64,000 nucleotides of DNA from Thalassospira sp. TSL5-1 (GTDB taxonomy: Bacteria; Pseudomonadota; Alphaproteobacteria; Rhodospirillales; Thalassospiraceae): positions 1,674,001-1,738,000 of the forward strand of contig NZ_KV880637.1 in the NCBI RefSeq assembly GCF_001907695.1. The letters run 5' to 3'. Below the pieces are notes generated by a model that saw only the letters and a list, made by a program, of their open reading frames with translations, did not search any database and was not told the DNA's origin. Both the position numbers and the translations under genes were made by a program. Shown here piece by piece: positions 18,384 to 29,351 of this stretch; within the stretch, counting starts at the first letter, position 1; each line of letters starts with the position of its first letter.

Positions 18384-18411
18384 AAGTTCTATAATATATA
18401 TTATGACAAAT
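18384..18411 (+). other. left attachment site attL, dif-like
   Basis: A 28-bp XerC/XerD-type site: arm AAGTTCTATAA, 6-bp centre TATATA (18395-18400) and arm TTATGACAAAT (18401-18411). Centre plus right arm agree with E. coli dif at 14 of 17 positions. The same 17 bp recur at 29333-29349, and the distance between copies is 10,938 bp. The left arm is different at the two copies and is a better mirror image of the right arm here. The host dif is therefore predicted to combine this left arm with the right arm of the other junction. Confidence 0.82.
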
Positions 18412-18496
18412 TAAGATCATTAACCGAGTACATCAGGCGATTGATATATGCTTTAAAAAACAACAGGTTAAACGTCCCTGTAAAAGCATAGAAACA

Positions 18497-18946
18497 ATGA
18501 TCTCCTTTCCCGTACTCTCACTGAAAACGCTACCTCCCGCCGAATTAGACAGACTATCCCAACATTTCCAGTACTTAGCCGATACTTGCGCAGACTTTGC
18601 AAAGGCAAATCGCAAGCGCGACCATCACACAGCATACGTGCGCGATTATCGCAAGCAAATTGACGCGACCGTAGACGCGATACGCGCCAAGATCGACAAG
18701 GGCCTTGATGAAGCTACCGCTCTACGTAAAGTTGTGGCAGAGACCCGCCTTCCAGAGGCAACAATTTTTGCAAGATGGCGGTTGCATAAAAAGCGAAAGA
18801 CCCGTGATTATGTCAAATTACGGGGTCAAAAAATCATGCAACTGAAGCGACGCGGGCACACGAATAAGGAAATCGCACAAAAAATCGGCCTATCCGCAAG
18901 TCAGATAGGCCGCATCATTGCCAAAATTTCGGTCGAAACGGGTTAA
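18497..18946 (+). CDS. element-encoded DNA-binding protein with C-terminal HTH
   Basis: 149 residues. The N-terminal half is helical and charged (PPAELDRLSQHFQYLADTC, then repeated basic/acidic heptads to about 85). The C-terminal part (about 108-145) is a resolvase/sigma-region-4 style helix-turn-helix: MQLKRRGHTNKEIAQKIG, then SASQIGRIIAKI. There is no good ribosome site. In the circular element its ATG would lie 5 nt behind the stop of the extended repressor frame, so it was probably designed to be translated by coupling with it. In the integrated form that link is broken and the gene lies behind host DNA. Its stop overlaps the convergent holin gene by 4 nt. Function unknown; a regulator of lytic genes is likely. 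Confidence 0.78.
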   Translation: MISFPVLSLKTLPPAELDRLSQHFQYLADTCADFAKANRKRDHHTAYVRDYRKQIDATVDAIRAKIDKGLDEATALRKVVAETRLPEATIFARWRLHKKRKTRDYVKLRGQKIMQLKRRGHTNKEIAQKIGLSASQIGRIIAKISVETG

Positions 18947-19878: not shown

Positions 19879-20394
19879 TTACGCCCGATAAAAGGCATGT
19901 CGGCCAATGTCGATAAGGTGGCTCATTGTTTGCGCCCAACTGGGTAAAACCACGTTGGGATTGAAATAATGATCCGCGCCCCCGGTAATATCTGGCAACG
20001 TGCCAGCAACCGCACGGGCGGCAATCTGCAAGGCTTCTGCAAAGGCCGGGTTGTTCGTGGTTACGGCATGGGCCGGTTGATAGTTCGGATCGCCTTTTGT
20101 CCAGGCCGTAAACTGGCCTTTTTTCTGGCAGACTTCGACAACGGTTTTGCCGTACCAAGTCTGTTTTGCAACCCGGTTCATCACCACGTTCGCCACGGCC
20201 TGCATACCGCGAGTGCCCTCGCCGCGTGCCTCGCCCCAGATCGTGCGGGCGAGGATGTCAACATCTTGCGCCGTGCGACCGGGATTTGACCCGACGTCAT
20301 AGTTTGACGGTTCGGTAGCGCCCGACCGTGCGGCCATGAAAGCGGCATAGGCAAGCCCACCGGCACCGATTAGCAAAAGTGCATCTTTATTCAT
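19879..20394 (-). CDS. SleB-type cell wall hydrolase (virion entry or lysis enzyme)
   Basis: 171 residues from the ATG at 20394, which overlaps the upstream gene by 8 nt. A longer frame upstream is only the shadow of that gene. A single N-terminal helix (DALLLIGAGGLAYAAFMAA) precedes a Hydrolase_2 domain: ILARTIWGEARGEGTRGMQAV with the conserved Glu, VVMNRV, GQFTAW and DHYFNP...PSWA. The family cleaves peptidoglycan. The membrane anchor suggests that the enzyme is carried in the virion membrane for entry, or is exported for lysis. Confidence 0.88.
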   Translation of the reverse strand: MNKDALLLIGAGGLAYAAFMAARSGATEPSNYDVGSNPGRTAQDVDILARTIWGEARGEGTRGMQAVANVVMNRVAKQTWYGKTVVEVCQKKGQFTAWTKGDPNYQPAHAVTTNNPAFAEALQIAARAVAGTLPDITGGADHYFNPNVVLPSWAQTMSHLIDIGRHAFYRA

Positions 20395-20662
20395 TTGGCG
20401 CGGCCTCCGGTTCGGGTTTTGGCAGTTCAACCATTTCCCTCTTAATGACCTTTTCGGCACCATCAGCGAAAATTTCGGTTGTGACCCGGCGACCGTCCGG
20501 AAACTGATCGACGCGACCCCCGACAACATCGTCGGGACCGGGTGCAGCAGGTTCAAAAACCGCCATGTCCTGTTTAACGCTGGCAACGATTTCAGAAAGC
20601 GGGCGGTCGTCGCCCTGGCCCCGCAATTGATAGGCCAACTGCATGATTTCCATGTTTGTCAT
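20387..20662 (-). CDS. 91-residue hypothetical soluble protein
   Basis: ATG at 20662 overlaps the stop of the spike-candidate gene (ATGA). The N-terminus is helical and acidic (MTNMEIMQLAYQLRGQGDD, then PLSEIVASVKQDM). It is followed by a Pro/Asp-rich stretch and a short beta-like part (VTTEIFADGAEKVIKREMV) with a Pro/Glu-rich tail. No helix spans the membrane. It sits between the spike candidate and the hydrolase, so it may be an assembly or vertex-associated protein. Not recognised. Confidence 0.65.
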   Translation of the reverse strand: MTNMEIMQLAYQLRGQGDDRPLSEIVASVKQDMAVFEPAAPGPDDVVGGRVDQFPDGRRVTTEIFADGAEKVIKREMVELPKPEPEAAPNE

Positions 20663-22788: not shown

Positions 22789-23607
22789 TTAGGCAGCAAC
22801 CGCCCCGCGCACTTCTTCGGTGTACAGGTTGAAATTGCCGGTCGCGCCCATTTCAAGGCGTACCCGGAAATCTTCCAGCAGCATCGGTAGCATGTCTGAA
22901 AGCCGATCACTTTCCACCATGTCAATGTGCGTGAAACCGGGCTGCCATACCTTGCCGGTCTGGATGGCCGTTGCCTCGCCCACTACCCGGTCAAAATCGC
23001 GGATAATGCGCTGGTTTGCTTCAAGCTGAACGCTCGAAATCTGATCAGTGCTGATGTGCATTGCCAGCAGGTTGTAGGACGTGCGCGGCAAATCCTGCAA
23101 TTCGCGGGTGCCTTGGTTGCCAACGTTAAACGGATATTTCTTGATCGCGTAAAACTGGCCGAGCGGCGTATTCGGCCCGATCCGGGCATAAACCACCAGT
23201 CCCGGGGACGTCACACCGTCCTTGATGTCAATTTCAAGCGAAAGCGACTGAATATCCGCCGTGCCGATGGCCGGGGCATCCTCACCAGCCGCTGTGCGCT
23301 GTGACGGATTAGCAAACATCAAGGGCAAGGCACCGGCTTTAACCGTCTGCCCTTTATATTTCAGGATCACGGCGAGATCAGCCGCATCAACGCGGATGCT
23401 TTCCTGTCCGTCGATATACAAGCGAATTTCGCCGATCACATCGCCCAAGCTGGAAACCGGCACGTCAACAATGCCGCTGCCAAGGTCCGCACGGATGCGT
23501 AGCATAAGCTGATAATACGTAATGCCCAGCGGCAGATTGAAAGTGGCCGTCTGGCCCGCACCAATGCCCGAACCGTTCGGCATTTTCTTGAAAATTCGTG
23601 TGGTCAT
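22789..23607 (-). CDS. major capsid protein, double jelly-roll, PM2 P2-like
   Basis: 272 residues (PM2 P2 has about 269). Compared with P2 as I remember it, the same landmarks occur in the same order. There is an early strand pair with LPxGxTY (FNLPLGITYYQLMLR, residues 24-37), an IRLYIDG strand (61-67; VRVELDG in P2) and a central segment with NxGTxEIxDLP (GNQGTRELQDLP, 163-174) followed by a hydrophobic strand with AxHI (LLAMHI). Near the end is DFRVRLEM (246-253; DLRLKID in P2). No membrane helix is seen. It would form trimeric pseudo-hexameric capsomers. GGGGGAG lies upstream of its start. The homology claim needs an alignment and structure prediction. Confidence 0.8.
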   Translation of the reverse strand: MTTRIFKKMPNGSGIGAGQTATFNLPLGITYYQLMLRIRADLGSGIVDVPVSSLGDVIGEIRLYIDGQESIRVDAADLAVILKYKGQTVKAGALPLMFANPSQRTAAGEDAPAIGTADIQSLSLEIDIKDGVTSPGLVVYARIGPNTPLGQFYAIKKYPFNVGNQGTRELQDLPRTSYNLLAMHISTDQISSVQLEANQRIIRDFDRVVGEATAIQTGKVWQPGFTHIDMVESDRLSDMLPMLLEDFRVRLEMGATGNFNLYTEEVRGAVAA

Positions 23608-24012: not shown

Positions 24013-24654
24013 TCAGTTTTTTCCCTTACGGATTTCACCATCCTTTTCCCAAAGGTAACAATGGGGCAGAAGGCTTTGAATTTGTTCCGGTTTCACCCCG
24101 CCAAGTTCATCACACGCTGCTTTAATGTCACGCGGCCCTTTTTGCCGGAAAACATAAGTTTCGGTGCAATTGCCACGAAAATTTGTGTTTACGTTGGCAA
24201 TGCGTTGCGAAACGCCAATAATGTTAATTCCTGAATGACGACCGCGTGAGCAAAGATCACCAAAACCGCCAAACTTGCGCGGGATGCCGGTTACAGGAAA
24301 TGACGTGTGCATTTCCTCAACCAGTAGCGTAATCTGGCGATTGTCCCTGCCTTCAAAAAATGGCGTTTGTGCCAGTTTCAGCAGCTTGGACAATCTGTCC
24401 AGGGCCTCCATTTCGGCACAGGCGGGCGGCACATAAGCCACCTTGAAATTGCGTTTCCAGTTTCGCGCCATATATCGGCGCACCTCATCAATGGATCGTA
24501 CTGTGAAAACTCCTTTCACCTCGCTGTATTCGTCTTGGGTGTCGAAAATGACCGCCCGCTTGCATTTCGCAATCAGCGCCTTTGCCCGGCGTGATTTGCC
24601 GGAACCGGACCGGCCCCAAATGCCGATCCGTCCCGCGTCCGAAATCGCGACCAT
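24013..24654 (-). CDS. genome-packaging ATPase, HerA/FtsK superfamily (PM2 P9 / PRD1 P9-like)
   Basis: 213 residues. Walker A GRSGSGKS (14-21), a first acidic strand VIFDTQDEY (36-43), Walker B ITLLVEE (108-114) and a late GINIIGVSQR (142-151) with arginines before it (SRGRHSG) as in HerA-type ATPases. This small single-domain form is the hallmark packaging motor of tailless PRD1-like and PM2-like viruses, which pump dsDNA into preformed capsids at one vertex. A Zot-like protein was considered, but no membrane helix follows the ATPase domain. The start shares its A with the stop of the upstream gene. Confidence 0.85.
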   Translation of the reverse strand: MVAISDAGRIGIWGRSGSGKSRRAKALIAKCKRAVIFDTQDEYSEVKGVFTVRSIDEVRRYMARNWKRNFKVAYVPPACAEMEALDRLSKLLKLAQTPFFEGRDNRQITLLVEEMHTSFPVTGIPRKFGGFGDLCSRGRHSGINIIGVSQRIANVNTNFRGNCTETYVFRQKGPRDIKAACDELGGVKPEQIQSLLPHCYLWEKDGEIRKGKN

Positions 24655-25575: not shown

Positions 25576-25723
25576 TTTCTAAGGCTTCGATCCGTGCGGC
25601 CATTGTTTCCATCAATGCAACCGCATCCTGCAAGGCCAATTCTGCTTGTTGCGCCTTAGCAAATAGCGGGACTTTTTTCGCCTCCGCAATGCGCTGCTTG
25701 AGACGCTGCAATTGTTCGTTCAT
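25562..25723 (-). CDS. 53-residue coiled-coil micro-protein
   Basis: ATG at 25723 inside the end of the rep gene (68-nt overlap, other frame). The stop overlaps the zinc-protein gene by 14 nt. MNEQLQRLKQRIAEAKKVPL continues with AKAQQAELALQDAVALMETM and ends ARIEALENGYR. Leu/Ile/Met/Ala spaced in heptads across the whole chain predicts a coiled coil. The overlapping chain and helix pattern support translation. Function unknown. Confidence 0.55.
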   Translation of the reverse strand: MNEQLQRLKQRIAEAKKVPLFAKAQQAELALQDAVALMETMAARIEALENGYR

Positions 25724-26864
25724 CAAGGATCACCCCATCTTCGTCATGGATTTCATACCGGCGAAAAACCTTTGTCATTTTGTCCTTAAACTCCTTGGCG
25801 CTTTCTCCTTTCACGTTGTTGGCAATCATTTCGGAAATCAGTTTAGGCAGTTCGGCCAGTCGGTCTTTGTGGACCCCGGCCAGAACGGCAAAATTTGCAG
25901 ACAGACCGATCATCATTGCGGAAATGGTTTGCCGTTGCTGTTCCTGCATGACCTGTTTCACAACGCCCGGTGTGGCATTGCTGGTATATTCAAACAGGTT
26001 TTCCCCGACGACACGGCGGCAGCTTTCCCACATTTCATCGTCGGGTATCCGCGTTACGTTATCGGCCTCGTCCCACAATTCGGCCTTGTAACGTATACGT
26101 AGGAGCGCGTGAGCATATATGTCGCCTAATTTGGCCCGCAAATCGGCCCATGACGTAACGCCCCATTGATCCTTTAAATGTTTCTTCCCGGCGCGTAATT
26201 CGATGCGCCACATCTGATCCCCGGAGGCTTCAAATTCGTCCCGGTCAATCCCCCAAATCTTCCACCATTCATCTTTACGCTTGGCGACAATATCGCGACG
26301 TTTGTCGTAAATGCAGATTTGCCGCCCCGGCATTTTGCCAATGGTCAAGCCGGTACACTGGCGCTTTTGCCAGTGCTGCCCGATTTCTTCCCCGTGCATG
26401 TCTGCCTTGGTTGTTCCGTGCAAGGCAAAACGATGTGGATCAAGGCGAAAATCGCCGGACATACGCCAATCCATTGCAAAATCAACGCGGGCTATTGCCT
26501 CTTGCAGAACGGTCGCGCCAACCGCGTCAAGGTCCGCATACATGCGCGATATGGCCCCTTCAAAGCCATAGGCGGCCAGGGTCGCAGACTTGCAGGAAAC
26601 CCGAATATTCCATCCTTCCCGCTTCTGCGATTTGGAAAAGAACCATGTAAAGCCAAGGTTGCCTGTATCAACCCGGTAGGTATACCCGCCCCGCGCCCCG
26701 GTTTCAGCGACATGCCCCTTAAATTTCCCGACTTGCGCAAAGGTTTCCTGCTTGGTTTCTTGCGCTGTCACCTTGGCAGCTTCAAACAATTCGACCGCCC
26801 GCAATGGAATGAAACCCTGAAACGTCACGTCTAAGCCATCAAAACCCGCGTAAATTAAATCCAT
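25656..26864 (-). CDS. replication initiator, Rep_trans / replication-initiation-factor type
   Basis: 402 residues. Three family landmarks are visible. RVDFAMDWRMSGDF (about 146-159) is an acidic metal-binding strand. GRQICIYDKRRDIVAKR (about 204-220) carries the IYDK motif whose tyrosine is the nicking residue in Rep_trans proteins. MWRIELRAGKKHLKDQWG (about 239-256) is the third. These proteins start rolling-circle replication in plasmids and in many filamentous phages. PM2 itself uses a phiX174-A-like initiator, so this block has a different origin. The C-terminal 130 residues are extra and helical. Confidence 0.8.
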   Translation of the reverse strand: MDLIYAGFDGLDVTFQGFIPLRAVELFEAAKVTAQETKQETFAQVGKFKGHVAETGARGGYTYRVDTGNLGFTWFFSKSQKREGWNIRVSCKSATLAAYGFEGAISRMYADLDAVGATVLQEAIARVDFAMDWRMSGDFRLDPHRFALHGTTKADMHGEEIGQHWQKRQCTGLTIGKMPGRQICIYDKRRDIVAKRKDEWWKIWGIDRDEFEASGDQMWRIELRAGKKHLKDQWGVTSWADLRAKLGDIYAHALLRIRYKAELWDEADNVTRIPDDEMWESCRRVVGENLFEYTSNATPGVVKQVMQEQQRQTISAMMIGLSANFAVLAGVHKDRLAELPKLISEMIANNVKGESAKEFKDKMTKVFRRYEIHDEDGVILDERTIAASQAAHCGGEKSPAIC

Positions 26865-26933: not shown

Positions 26934-27620
26934 CTAACCTGGCAACAATTCGGCCTGGCCGGCCGTATTCTTGGCATGGAAGTGAGCCAGGTCATTATTG
27001 GCCTGGTCATCGATCACTTTCTTGGCCCAGCCAGCAATGAACCGCGAATATGCTGGCGGGACTGCCTGCACAATTTCCCGTCTGTTCATCCAATGAATTC
27101 CCATAGCGTCGCACCAGGCCGAGAACGTGCCAGCTGACCCCCCGCCACCACCGGCGACAGTGACCGATCCGGGCCGCGTATCTGGACCAAATCGCGGCCC
27201 GGGCGCAGGGGCCAAAACAGGAAAATTCACCTCGAAAATGCGTTTGCGATAAGTGTTTAATCCGAACATGTCCCCGGTTAAAACGACATCAGGTCGCAAG
27301 GGCGCACATTCAACATTTTCCATACAATAAGGCTTGCCGGATGCTTCAAGCGCCGCACGACAAGGCTCTATCAAATCTTCATGCAAGGCCCGCCTGTCCA
27401 TTGGTGTCGCTTTTGAAAATTGCTGGCATGGCGGCGAAGCCCAAATAAAATCAAACATGCCAAGATCAAGCCAGGTCAGAACCTCGAAAACATCACCAAC
27501 GATTTTTGGAAATGGATAGTTTTTTGAATACTTGCGATCCACTCCGATCACTTCAAAACCGGCTTCGGCTATCCCTTTAGACGCGCCACCTGCACAGCAA
27601 AACAAATCAAGAGCTTTCAT
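26934..27620 (-). CDS. orphan DNA (cytosine-5) methyltransferase, short form
   Basis: 228 residues. Motif I DLFCCAGGASKGIAEAGF, motif IV with the catalytic Cys in SPPCQQFS, motif VI MENV, motif VIII TYRKRIFEV and motif X PPAYSRFIAGW. The target-recognition part between VIII and X is very short (about 60 residues). No endonuclease gene is near. In phages such enzymes usually protect the DNA against host restriction or mark it. The start overlaps the upstream gene by 4 nt. Target sequence unknown. Confidence 0.9.
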   Translation of the reverse strand: MKALDLFCCAGGASKGIAEAGFEVIGVDRKYSKNYPFPKIVGDVFEVLTWLDLGMFDFIWASPPCQQFSKATPMDRRALHEDLIEPCRAALEASGKPYCMENVECAPLRPDVVLTGDMFGLNTYRKRIFEVNFPVLAPAPGPRFGPDTRPGSVTVAGGGGGSAGTFSAWCDAMGIHWMNRREIVQAVPPAYSRFIAGWAKKVIDDQANNDLAHFHAKNTAGQAELLPG

Positions 27621-27994
27621 CGCTCAAACCCCTCGACATAGCCCCACCTGGCAAACTCCATTGACCACATGCGATAATTGTTGAACTCGCGCAGATTGCG
27701 CACCTGCCCCCACAAACGGTTAAGCGTTGACTGGGTCAGCAGCCTGCACATCGGCCAGATTTCAAAGCTGTCTATCGGGGCCGGTTCTGCTAGCGTCATC
27801 TTTTCGCAAGCTGCCAGCAGGTCAAAACCGCGATCTCGCGGAAGGAATGCGGCAAACTCGTTACCGTCCTCATTCCATTCAACAAAGACGTGCTTGCACC
27901 GCTGCAAAGCTTCTCCAAAGGCCACCATGTGAACGGGCGGGGCCTTACGGTCCCGCCCTTGCTCGTTTGCCCTGTTAAGCGGCTGCATTTGCAC
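27617..27994 (-). CDS. 125-residue hypothetical protein of the early block
   Basis: Not recognised. Overlaps the DUF736 gene by 20 nt and the methyltransferase by 4 nt, so it is embedded in a coupled chain. Composition is of a soluble alpha/beta protein with many Trp, Arg and Glu (CKHVFVEWNEDGNEFAAFL, RLWGQVRNLREFNNYRMW). No membrane helix or metal motif is seen. Possibly a DNA-metabolism or anti-host factor, by position only. Confidence 0.65.
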   Translation of the reverse strand: MQMQPLNRANEQGRDRKAPPVHMVAFGEALQRCKHVFVEWNEDGNEFAAFLPRDRGFDLLAACEKMTLAEPAPIDSFEIWPMCRLLTQSTLNRLWGQVRNLREFNNYRMWSMEFARWGYVEGFER

Positions 27995-28355
27995 CCGCCC
28001 GGCGCGGGCGCTCCCATTTGATTTCGTAGGTTCCGGCTTTCAGTTCCCACGCTGTCAGGTTCAGCGACATATGAAAGCTGGGATCGTCGAGCGTCATGGT
28101 CAGGAACTTTTTGCCTGCATTGTCCCCGCGCTTGATTTCCTTGATCCATGCCGCGCCAATCTTAACAGCACCCCGGCGACCGGCCCCGAAAACGTCGAAG
28201 GCAGGGCGTCCCGGTCCGTTTTCATCACCAACGGGCGGTTTGCCACTTTTCCAGTTTTCAGGGATTGCATGCAATTCAATGTCAATCCCGAAATCCAGCG
28301 TTTCAAACTTGCCGTTTGCACTGGTGAACTTTTCATCAAAATTCAAAACATTCAT
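27975..28355 (-). CDS. DUF736-like protein
   Basis: 126 residues. The C-terminal half carries the DUF736 pattern: VKIGAAWIKEI, then GKKFLTMTLDDPSFHMSLNL and GTYEIKWERPRR. In known members this reads IGAAWKK, YLSVKLDDPSF and an aromatic end strand. The family is common on alphaproteobacterial plasmids and integrative elements and has been thought to be a small OB-like or ssDNA-associated protein, which is unproven. An ssDNA-binding role would suit a rolling-circle element. Start overlaps the upstream gene (ATGA). Confidence 0.75.
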   Translation of the reverse strand: MNVLNFDEKFTSANGKFETLDFGIDIELHAIPENWKSGKPPVGDENGPGRPAFDVFGAGRRGAVKIGAAWIKEIKRGDNAGKKFLTMTLDDPSFHMSLNLTAWELKAGTYEIKWERPRRAGANAAA

Positions 28356-28869: not shown

Positions 28870-28964
28870 ATCAACGTCACATGACGTTAGACAAAACAAA
28901 TCAGAAATCATTGTCAATGTCTAATATCACATGACATATTGATTTCTGGGAAACGGAGGTTGCT
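28870..28964. promoter_or_regulatory. divergent operator-promoter region of the element
   Basis: Two copies of TCACATGAC lie exactly 50 bp apart (28877-28885 and 28927-28935). The first is the centre of a perfect AACGTCA-CA-TGACGTT inverted repeat. TTAGACAA and its mirror TTGTC..TGTCTAA are also present. A consensus -35 TTGACA faces left (minus strand, 28912-28917). For the rightward gene TTGTCA (28911-28916) and CATATT (28935-28940) form a promoter whose spacer contains the second TCACATGAC. GGAGGT precedes the rightward ATG. This looks like a lambda-type switch controlled by the HTH protein it borders. Confidence 0.72.
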
Positions 28965-29351
28965 ATGAATACGATTGACGATTATTTGGACGCCGCCATC
29001 ATCAACGAAAAGTTGCGCTCGGATCGCGCTTTGAGTGTCAAGTTGGGATTGTCGCCGGGATCAGTTAACCATTTCCGCACAAAAAAGGCTTGGCCTTCTG
29101 ACAACACAATGATCAAGATTGCCAGTCTTGCTAACATGGACGAAACCGAGGCCCTTTTAAGCCTTAACATTTGGCGCAACATGGATGGTGCCGCCGCGCC
29201 CTTGTATTCGCGCCTCATGGACAAATTAAAAGCCGCCGCGATGCTTGGAATTGCTATGTTTTTTATTATTGCAGCCTTTAGCGGAACGTCTACCCCTGCT
29301 CACGCCGACCAGTTGCATGGGGTATTCAATGGTATATATTATGACAAATAA
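28965..29351 (+). CDS. membrane-tethered HTH repressor-like protein, truncated by integration
   Basis: 128 residues in the integrated form. A Cro/CI-like HTH (about 18-62: ALSVKLGLSPGSVNHFR, TMIKIASLANMDETEALL) is followed by one hydrophobic segment (88-106, AMLGIAMFFIIAAFSG) and an outer tail ending GIYYDK. This layout is like DUF3693-type proteins of Xer-dependent filamentous phages. The last six codons lie in attR, and two bases of the stop codon are host DNA. In the circular element the frame continues with LRSLTEYIRRLIYALKNNRL and NVPVKA, giving 154 residues. Excellent GGAGGT site. Probably represses the leftward operon. Confidence 0.82.
   Translation: MNTIDDYLDAAIINEKLRSDRALSVKLGLSPGSVNHFRTKKAWPSDNTMIKIASLANMDETEALLSLNIWRNMDGAAAPLYSRLMDKLKAAAMLGIAMFFIIAAFSGTSTPAHADQLHGVFNGIYYDK
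29322..29349 (+). other. right attachment site attR, dif-like
   Basis: Arm GTATTCAATGG, centre TATATA (29333-29338), arm TTATGACAAAT (29339-29349). Centre and right arm repeat attL exactly. The left arm is poorly dif-like and, by exchange logic, belongs to the phage site. The site lies inside the last codons of the repressor-like gene. Host DNA starts at about 29350, 10 bp before the stop of the convergent host gene. Confidence 0.82.

Follow-up and report, generated by a model that had tools for sequence, protein, structure and literature searches.

How might a small phage that borrows the recombinases of its host let its own regulator register whether the viral DNA is circular or integrated? 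This question is raised by a stretch of 64,000 nucleotides from Thalassospira sp. TSL5-1 (contig NZ_KV880637.1, positions 1,674,001 to 1,738,000), hereafter the window, where a prophage of 10,938 bp lies between two copies of the sequence TATATATTATGACAAAT (18395-18411 and 29333-29349) and the gene of a helix-turn-helix (HTH) protein ends at the right-hand copy. From comparison of sequences we propose, with a probability of roughly two in three, that this protein, a member of the phrog_638 family, is a phage regulator anchored in the membrane and switched by integration. The features that bear most directly on the proposal are these:

28965 to 29351, forward strand: HTH regulator with a membrane segment, 128 amino acids in its lysogen form (phrog_638, E 1.9e-18; HTH_3 below the Pfam cut-off).
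29232 to 29306, forward strand: predicted hydrophobic segment, followed by PAHA (17-residue hydropathy 2.30 from residue 90).
18411 to 18491, forward strand: attP-side tail of the regulator, 26 codons (LRSLTEYIRRLIYALKNNRLNVPVKA) and TAG, joined to the frame only when the phage is circular.
18384 to 18394, forward strand: host dif arm of XerC type (AAGTTCTATAA), on the left side of attL, read from the sequence.
18395 to 18411, forward strand: attL core, the 6-bp centre TATATA and the XerD-type arm TTATGACAAAT, read from the sequence.
29333 to 29349, forward strand: attR core, identical to the attL core and without a XerC-type arm, read from the sequence.
28876 to 28935, no strand assigned: two copies of TCACATGAC in 18-nt inverted arms (28876-28893 and 28918-28935) upstream of the regulator, candidate operators.

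The last codons of the regulator lie inside the right core, and the stop bases 29350-29351 lie beyond it. When the two ends of the prophage are joined in silico, the resulting attP reads ...GIYYDK and then LRSLTEYIRRLIYALKNNRLNVPVKA, from the codon TTA at 18411-18413 to the stop TAG at 18489-18491, which gives a protein of 154 amino acids. A preliminary description of this locus had placed the cores, the HTH open reading frame (ORF) and its stop where direct reading of the sequence also places them; its joining of attR to attL, with a frame that stays open and products of 154 and 128 residues, was reproduced, and attP is indeed seen inside the regulator frame, integration swapping the 26-residue tail for a stop. 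The membrane tether that it assumed agrees with the hydrophobic segment predicted from hydropathy, after which stands PAHA, which we take to be a signal-peptidase-like A-x-A motif. Such motifs follow the hydrophobic segment in the window regulator and in relatives, and cleavage by signal peptidase could free the tail as a peptide. A promoter scan, with 4 sites against 1.2 expected by shuffle, was not used. After the core, the other two frames are open for 0 and 177 codons; open-frame length was dropped as evidence, since a 26-codon run is within chance and alternative frames can be longer. The case that the regulator frame matters is therefore made by comparison with relatives, and not by the length of the frame.

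The site itself was assigned to dif because of a switch in guanine-cytosine (GC) skew, full arms on one side only, an empty site in a congener, and host genes for XerD and a homologue. Up to ~15 kb the skew is for the most part positive, and beyond ~19 kb it is for the most part negative, apart from minor positive runs at 31-35 and 37-39 kb. The full XerC-type arm occurs at the left copy only, the right copy lacking it, so that the two are direct repeats of the dif core (the arm names are those that we take to apply from E. coli dif). In the congener (G014, locus L138) an uninterrupted dif stands between the same flanks (85% over 1126 bp and 80% over 1503 bp, with ~400 bp adjoining the core on the left unaligned), and the host genome has a XerD gene scoring over the family cut-off and a second homologue. 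No other exact copies of the 17-bp core were found by a genome-wide search of the 4.97-Mb host genome, and the dif pattern, with up to three mismatches, is present in 29 of the 29 genomes of the genus. A further dif-like site with two mismatches, on contig C4 (240967-240983, L003), is probably the dif of another replicon. Among the 20 prophage ORFs scanned with Pfam, 10 of them also with PHROGs and some ORFs of less than 90 amino acids falling outside the scan, no integrase match rose above the cut-off; only weak hits were seen, a transposase PHROG on a second HTH protein (4e-4) and a zinc-ribbon below the cut-off. The element is likely a Xer-dependent integrating prophage with Xer/dif as its integration route, and the part given to host XerC/XerD in the preliminary description is likewise supported as likely by the dif features, the empty site and the host genes.

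Is the crossing of attP by a regulator frame peculiar to this prophage? Since the window regulator had no match in phage records, the regulators of relatives were used as queries against those records. Profile searches for the regulator retrieved 14 of 385 genomes in the class, 7 of 142 in the order of G265 and 19 of 398 in the phylum, and in smaller groups 1 of 43, 1 of 18 and 1 of 1, each being the seed genome alone; within the genus the regulator was found in 2 of 29 genomes (the own one and G010), and a search for the capsid gave 9 of 385 genomes of the class, the own one included. Short peptide patterns, of the capsid in viral and genome contigs and of two regulators in viral contigs, confirmed no close relative.

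In all 24 elements for which both sides or an uninterrupted gene were at hand, the attP-form frame is open through the core and continues into a tail of between 11 and 61 residues. Two of these, the IMG/VR contigs L079 and L080, carry terminal direct repeats (60 and 127 bp) and so show the frame without interruption; in SMA9, PSH1, phiSHP2, Cf1c, phiXv2, Cf2 and VCY the gene as deposited is the long form, and the records of phiXv2 and Cf2 carry an annotated attP feature inside the HTH gene. The WC36-1 record has no annotation, and the cores of L079, VCY, phiSHP2 and WC36-1 were placed by dif likeness only. The least secure attP form is that of G540, where the phage side adjoins other genes instead of a second HTH gene; a restriction-modification-like pair (recognised by eye) occupies that place on its contig C1 (L070/L085). 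L084, with a terminal repeat of 127 bp and a tailed regulator, was left out of the count, its att not being located, and L083 appears to hold two tandem prophages in one viral contig, with two dif-type cores and two packaging-ATPase matches. A fixed reading phase through the core was considered and dropped, as phases differ among elements. A hydrophobic segment is present in all 24 regulators (17-residue hydropathy 1.41 to 2.39), and in 18 of them a loose A-x-[AGS] comes after it.

Integrated elements give a similar picture. In the class and order scans, 11 of 13 tailed regulators, the window included, cross a recognisable dif-like core in the lysogen (G097 and G030 could not be judged), the class matches without a membrane segment (G037, G123, G144) stop before the dif-like site, and no dif-like site was seen at four weak class matches (G109, G079, G092, G247). 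Among the 18 loci of the phylum scan besides the window, nine cross the dif-like core or stop inside it (G614, G700, G900, G823, G898, G860, G750b, G682 and G942; G614 and G823 by eye), six stop before it (G889, G750a, G675, G902, G806 and G693; G750a and G902 by eye) and three have no dif-like core (G832, G789 and G672), as is also the case for G752.

The tails read from the attP forms share features at the level of protein. All 24 are net positive, and 14 contain the motif [KR][KR][FILMVWY]; the basic pair in it was written down once four tails had been read, and the relaxed version was settled before the phylum scan. For comparison with dinucleotide shuffles free of stops, G682, PSH1 and phiXv2 were dropped (their tails are shared with SMA9 or Cf1c, and all three lack the motif). 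In the 21 tails left, the motif occurs in 14 against 3.6 expected (0 of 20,000 draws), the summed charge is 89 against 54.8 (p 0.0000 to the digits printed), and all 21 are net positive against 17.2 (p 0.008). Without the first four tails the motif count is 10 of 17 (2.8 expected), and for those obtained after the written prediction it is 5 of 8 (1.4 expected, p 0.003), with p 0.011 for charge and p 0.08 for net positivity (8/8). Keeping the three dropped rows gives 14/24 overall and 5/11 after the prediction, and replacing SMA9 by G682 or PSH1 gives 13/21 overall and 4/8 after the prediction. In the out-of-frame readings of the same DNA, the motif appears in 5 of 42. The architecture, its recurrence and tail features that go beyond shuffled controls are shown at the level of sequence. 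In L110 (G860), the lysogen tail RRTWRYYW resembles the attP tail RRVWRYYW, as if a related element adjoined.

These figures bear on two other explanations. It could be that attP lies at the end of a compact gene by mere packing, the added residues having no function; open runs of 11-61 codons are nothing unusual, the reading phase through the core varies and the lysogen tails are arbitrary. We regard such neutrality as unlikely, given the motif excess, the charge excess and, between the tails of SMA9 and PSH1, a proportion of synonymous differences (pS, 0.39) above that of non-synonymous ones (pN, 0.16). A synonymous count for Cf1c and phiXv2 was discarded, the pair being one codon out of register. 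The other explanation places the constraint on the DNA: the sequence to the right of the core, where the tail adjoins the Xer site, would bind recombination helpers, and the similar residues would be an accident. This seems very improbable, as the basic pair stands at distances from the core that vary between 1 and about 30 residues and is encoded differently, by AGGCGA in the window, AAAAAG in G265 and CGGCGC in G400; since the codons differ, the likeness is one of protein.

The ends of the tails bear on a more specific reading. The attP forms include the termini EIAA, AAPA and PAFA, and 12 of 24 end in alanine (three of these with one common tail), as might be expected if the tail were a degradation signal like that of phage BPs, the long form being destroyed and the short one stable and repressive. 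The same logic has been shown for gp33-136 and gp33-103 of BPs (PMC4557955). As an analogy it is possible but somewhat doubtful here: should the membrane segment be inserted with the HTH domain inside, the tail would lie outside, beyond the reach of ClpXP, and terminal alanines may also stem from NNA codons before a stop that is close to the next start.

That next start belongs to a gene that changes its neighbourhood upon integration:

18497 to 18946, forward strand: second HTH gene, 149 amino acids (C-terminal HTH, weak family matches only).

In the joined ends it begins 5 nt after the stop of the long form, and in 21 of the 24 elements a same-strand ORF begins near that stop. Integration parts the regulator from this second HTH gene, a mechanism absent from the preliminary description. 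It is possible, though less likely than not, that what matters is this splitting of an operon, whereby the two genes would form one transcript in the circle and be separated in the lysogen, the changed C-terminus being a by-product. The attP site is found between two regulator-type genes even where the first stops before it (NO16 genes 6/7, PG21 and the prophage of T. marina), spacing is tight (the 5-nt gap in the window, overlaps of 4 nt in SMA9, PSH1 and G682), and NO16 genes 6 and 7 are reported as both more expressed at a low phage-to-host ratio (PMC9966536). However, operon splitting leaves unexplained the excess of the tail motif, and also why it is the regulators bearing a membrane segment that cross the core, the others stopping short of it (G675 excepted). 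In phrog_34897, a family of 279 positions, positions 1-129 are matched by the SMA9 regulator and 154-252 by the gene after it, as if the two were fusable across attP.

Several observations weigh against an integration switch acting through the tail. The preliminary description had asked whether the frame is open across attP in related elements; it is so in many, all 24 attP forms among them, but the closest prophage, that of T. marina, with a capsid 93% identical, lacks the arrangement, its short regulator stopping before att, which agrees in part with an outcome that the description had itself named as refuting. G675 has a hydrophobic end and yet stops 8 nt before the dif-like site, and the lysogen frames of G700 and G898 end within the XerD-type arm, the other ends of these elements not having been found. 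Ten tails are without the motif (G542, G451, L079, L080, G682, Cf1c, phiXv2, phiSHP2, PSH1 and WC36-1), and the motif of VCY, near the very end, may be incidental. Positivity is partly a matter of composition, 32 of the 42 out-of-frame readings being net positive as well. Although the motif is found in 0 of 13 lysogen tails within the first 40 residues, these tails are mostly short (three are empty) and make a weak control, and the full 77-residue lysogen tail of G400 does contain it. The relaxed motif was set when nine further tails were already known, so that the last set alone is a true prediction, and the shuffle tests take tails as independent. The excess of pS over pN is seen within one filamentous group only. 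Finally, a structure model of the L079 protein combines a confident HTH domain with low-confidence helices towards its end, the tail helix having a pLDDT (predicted local distance difference test) of only about 60.

The integration switch, which we still prefer, could operate as follows. In the circular phage, the regulator frame would cross the dif-like attP, continue as a short tail of cationic and hydrophobic character, and end beside the second HTH gene. Host XerC/XerD would join attP to the chromosomal dif, and in the lysogen a host frame (in the window, an immediate stop) would replace the tail and the second HTH gene would be cut from the regulator transcript. If the tailed form is weaker or short-lived and the tailless form maintains lysogeny, repression would become strong only once the phage has integrated. 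The tail could mark the protein for a protease of the membrane or of the cytoplasm, or could alter the topology of the membrane segment, and the splitting of the two-gene unit, which occurs in both classes of regulator described below, may act together with it. We infer Xer catalysis in this host, production of the protein, a common transcript and a different action of the two forms. By analogy with BPs, and with the instability of integrated XacF1 once most of ORF12 is deleted, we think it more likely that the short form is the stable repressor of the lysogenic state.

To what kind of virus does the regulator belong? The prophage carries, besides the genes above:

22789 to 23607, reverse strand: double-jelly-roll major capsid protein (Pfam P2_N 1.2e-18, P2_C 2.3e-18).
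24013 to 24654, reverse strand: packaging ATPase (phrog_2666, DUF87/Zot-type), near the capsid gene.
25656 to 26864, reverse strand: 402-amino-acid protein conserved in relatives (no Pfam match; one weak match to a PHROG of unknown function), a probable replication initiator.
19879 to 20586, reverse strand: cell-wall hydrolase (Pfam Hydrolase_2).

The capsid protein is 26-29% identical to the best-matching NO16-type capsids, and the presence of a P2-type capsid protein and a packaging ATPase classes the prophage, as judged from its sequence, with the corticovirus-like (Vinavirales) tailless phages. A cytosine methyltransferase gene (26934-27620) and a DUF736 gene (27975-28355) are also present.

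Across the elements compared, regulators with a hydrophobic segment cross the core and those without it stop a few to ~130 nt before, with the exception of G675. The segment-less class comprises the T. marina prophage, G037, NO16, PG21, L081, L082 and others, with hydropathy computed for six and the rest judged by eye; PG21 has a hydropathy peak of 2.07, which however lies within the HTH domain (residue 51). The T. marina prophage (L026 9829-10119, L029; G010 C2), on a replicon of 908 kb, matches that of the window at 96.5% identity in the 402-amino-acid protein and 66% in the ATPase and spike. Since so near a relative has a regulator of the second class and a dif in the opposite orientation (by eye), the module of control genes and attP has by this comparison been exchanged; it is exchangeable and not fixed in this virus lineage. 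Moreover, SMA9, PSH1 and G682 have nearly the same tail and next gene (L117 2070-2184, L122 5921-6040 and L111), whereas the G682 regulator is 97% identical to that of SMA9 and only 30.5% to that of PSH1, and a nearly identical end behind such different regulators suggests recombination at attP in this group. On balance we lean towards a wider view, in which Xer-borrowing phages of two unrelated realms, the tailless double-jelly-roll and the filamentous ones, would have one exchangeable module in common. It would consist of an HTH regulator anchored in the membrane, with a cationic attP tail that reports circular DNA, and would act as an integrase-free switch, exchange at attP mixing DNA-binding halves and tails.

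If this holds, small phages without an integrase would tie immunity to integration through a switch read from the arrangement of the DNA alone, and a common rule would apply to filamentous and tailless prophages at dif, two classes reported to account together for most of the prophages of marine Vibrio (PMC11630473). There would be a defined peptide whose loss is testable, and a hypothesis voiced for phiRSS0 in 2013 would become a general, checkable claim. There is also a warning for annotation, as lysogen genomes would display a truncated or host-tailed regulator.

Parts of this scheme have precedents. The preliminary description had looked to the integration-dependent immunity of mycobacteriophage BPs, where attP lies inside the repressor gene, integration shortens gp33-136 to gp33-103 (136 to 103 amino acids) and the long form bears an ssrA-like tag (PMC4557955). 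The likeness lies in the position of attP and in the shorter lysogen form; BPs differs in having its own integrase, none having been found in the window prophage, in a tag whose effect was shown, and in that the accessible part of the source mentions no membrane segment. Nearer than BPs are the filamentous phages phiRSS0 and XacF1, which integrate through Xer with attP in a regulator. ORF13 of phiRSS0 goes from 156 to 130 amino acids on integration, by description a loss of 26 residues as in the window, and a hypothesis about it was stated there (PMC3816273); XacF1 has attP in ORF12 (PMC4076744), and a 5′ deletion removing most of ORF12 made its integrated state unstable (PMC5666396). In this group (phiRSS0 and XacF1/Cf1c/Cf2/phiXv2, ORF12/cp8), an HTH domain and a hydrophobic segment precede a dif-like attP at the 3′ end, the frame runs on into a basic tail and a second small gene is adjacent; the regulators of SMA9, Cf1c and Cf2 match phrog_638, as that of the window does. 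These are Inoviridae, of another virion type and realm and without a double-jelly-roll capsid, and in the accessible parts of their papers no conserved tail is described and a functional difference between the forms is put as a hypothesis only.

Integration of tailless phages at dif is itself published (PMC9966536, PMC11630473, PMC10589892). The tailless vibriophages NO16 and PG21 (Asemoviridae) have a related capsid and a dif-like site between an HTH gene and a second regulator-type gene, but their HTH gene is short, lacks a tail segment and terminates ahead of the site. Jorvik and Jorvik-like prophages of Rhodobacter are also tailless, with a dif-like attP, proposed Xer integration and an HTH gene near attP (gp1) with a proposed role in lysogeny; by its description, Jorvik differs in a non-coding region between attP and gp1 (PMC10589892). 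No attP-crossing regulator of a tailless phage was seen in the accessible passages of these papers or in searches of the open-licence literature, in keeping with what the preliminary description had supposed, and older work on phage Cf (Cheng 1999, cited in PMC5666396) may contain more. As far as searches of the open-licence literature show, what is new here is the occurrence in tailless phages, the recurring cationic tail, and a single module in two virus realms.
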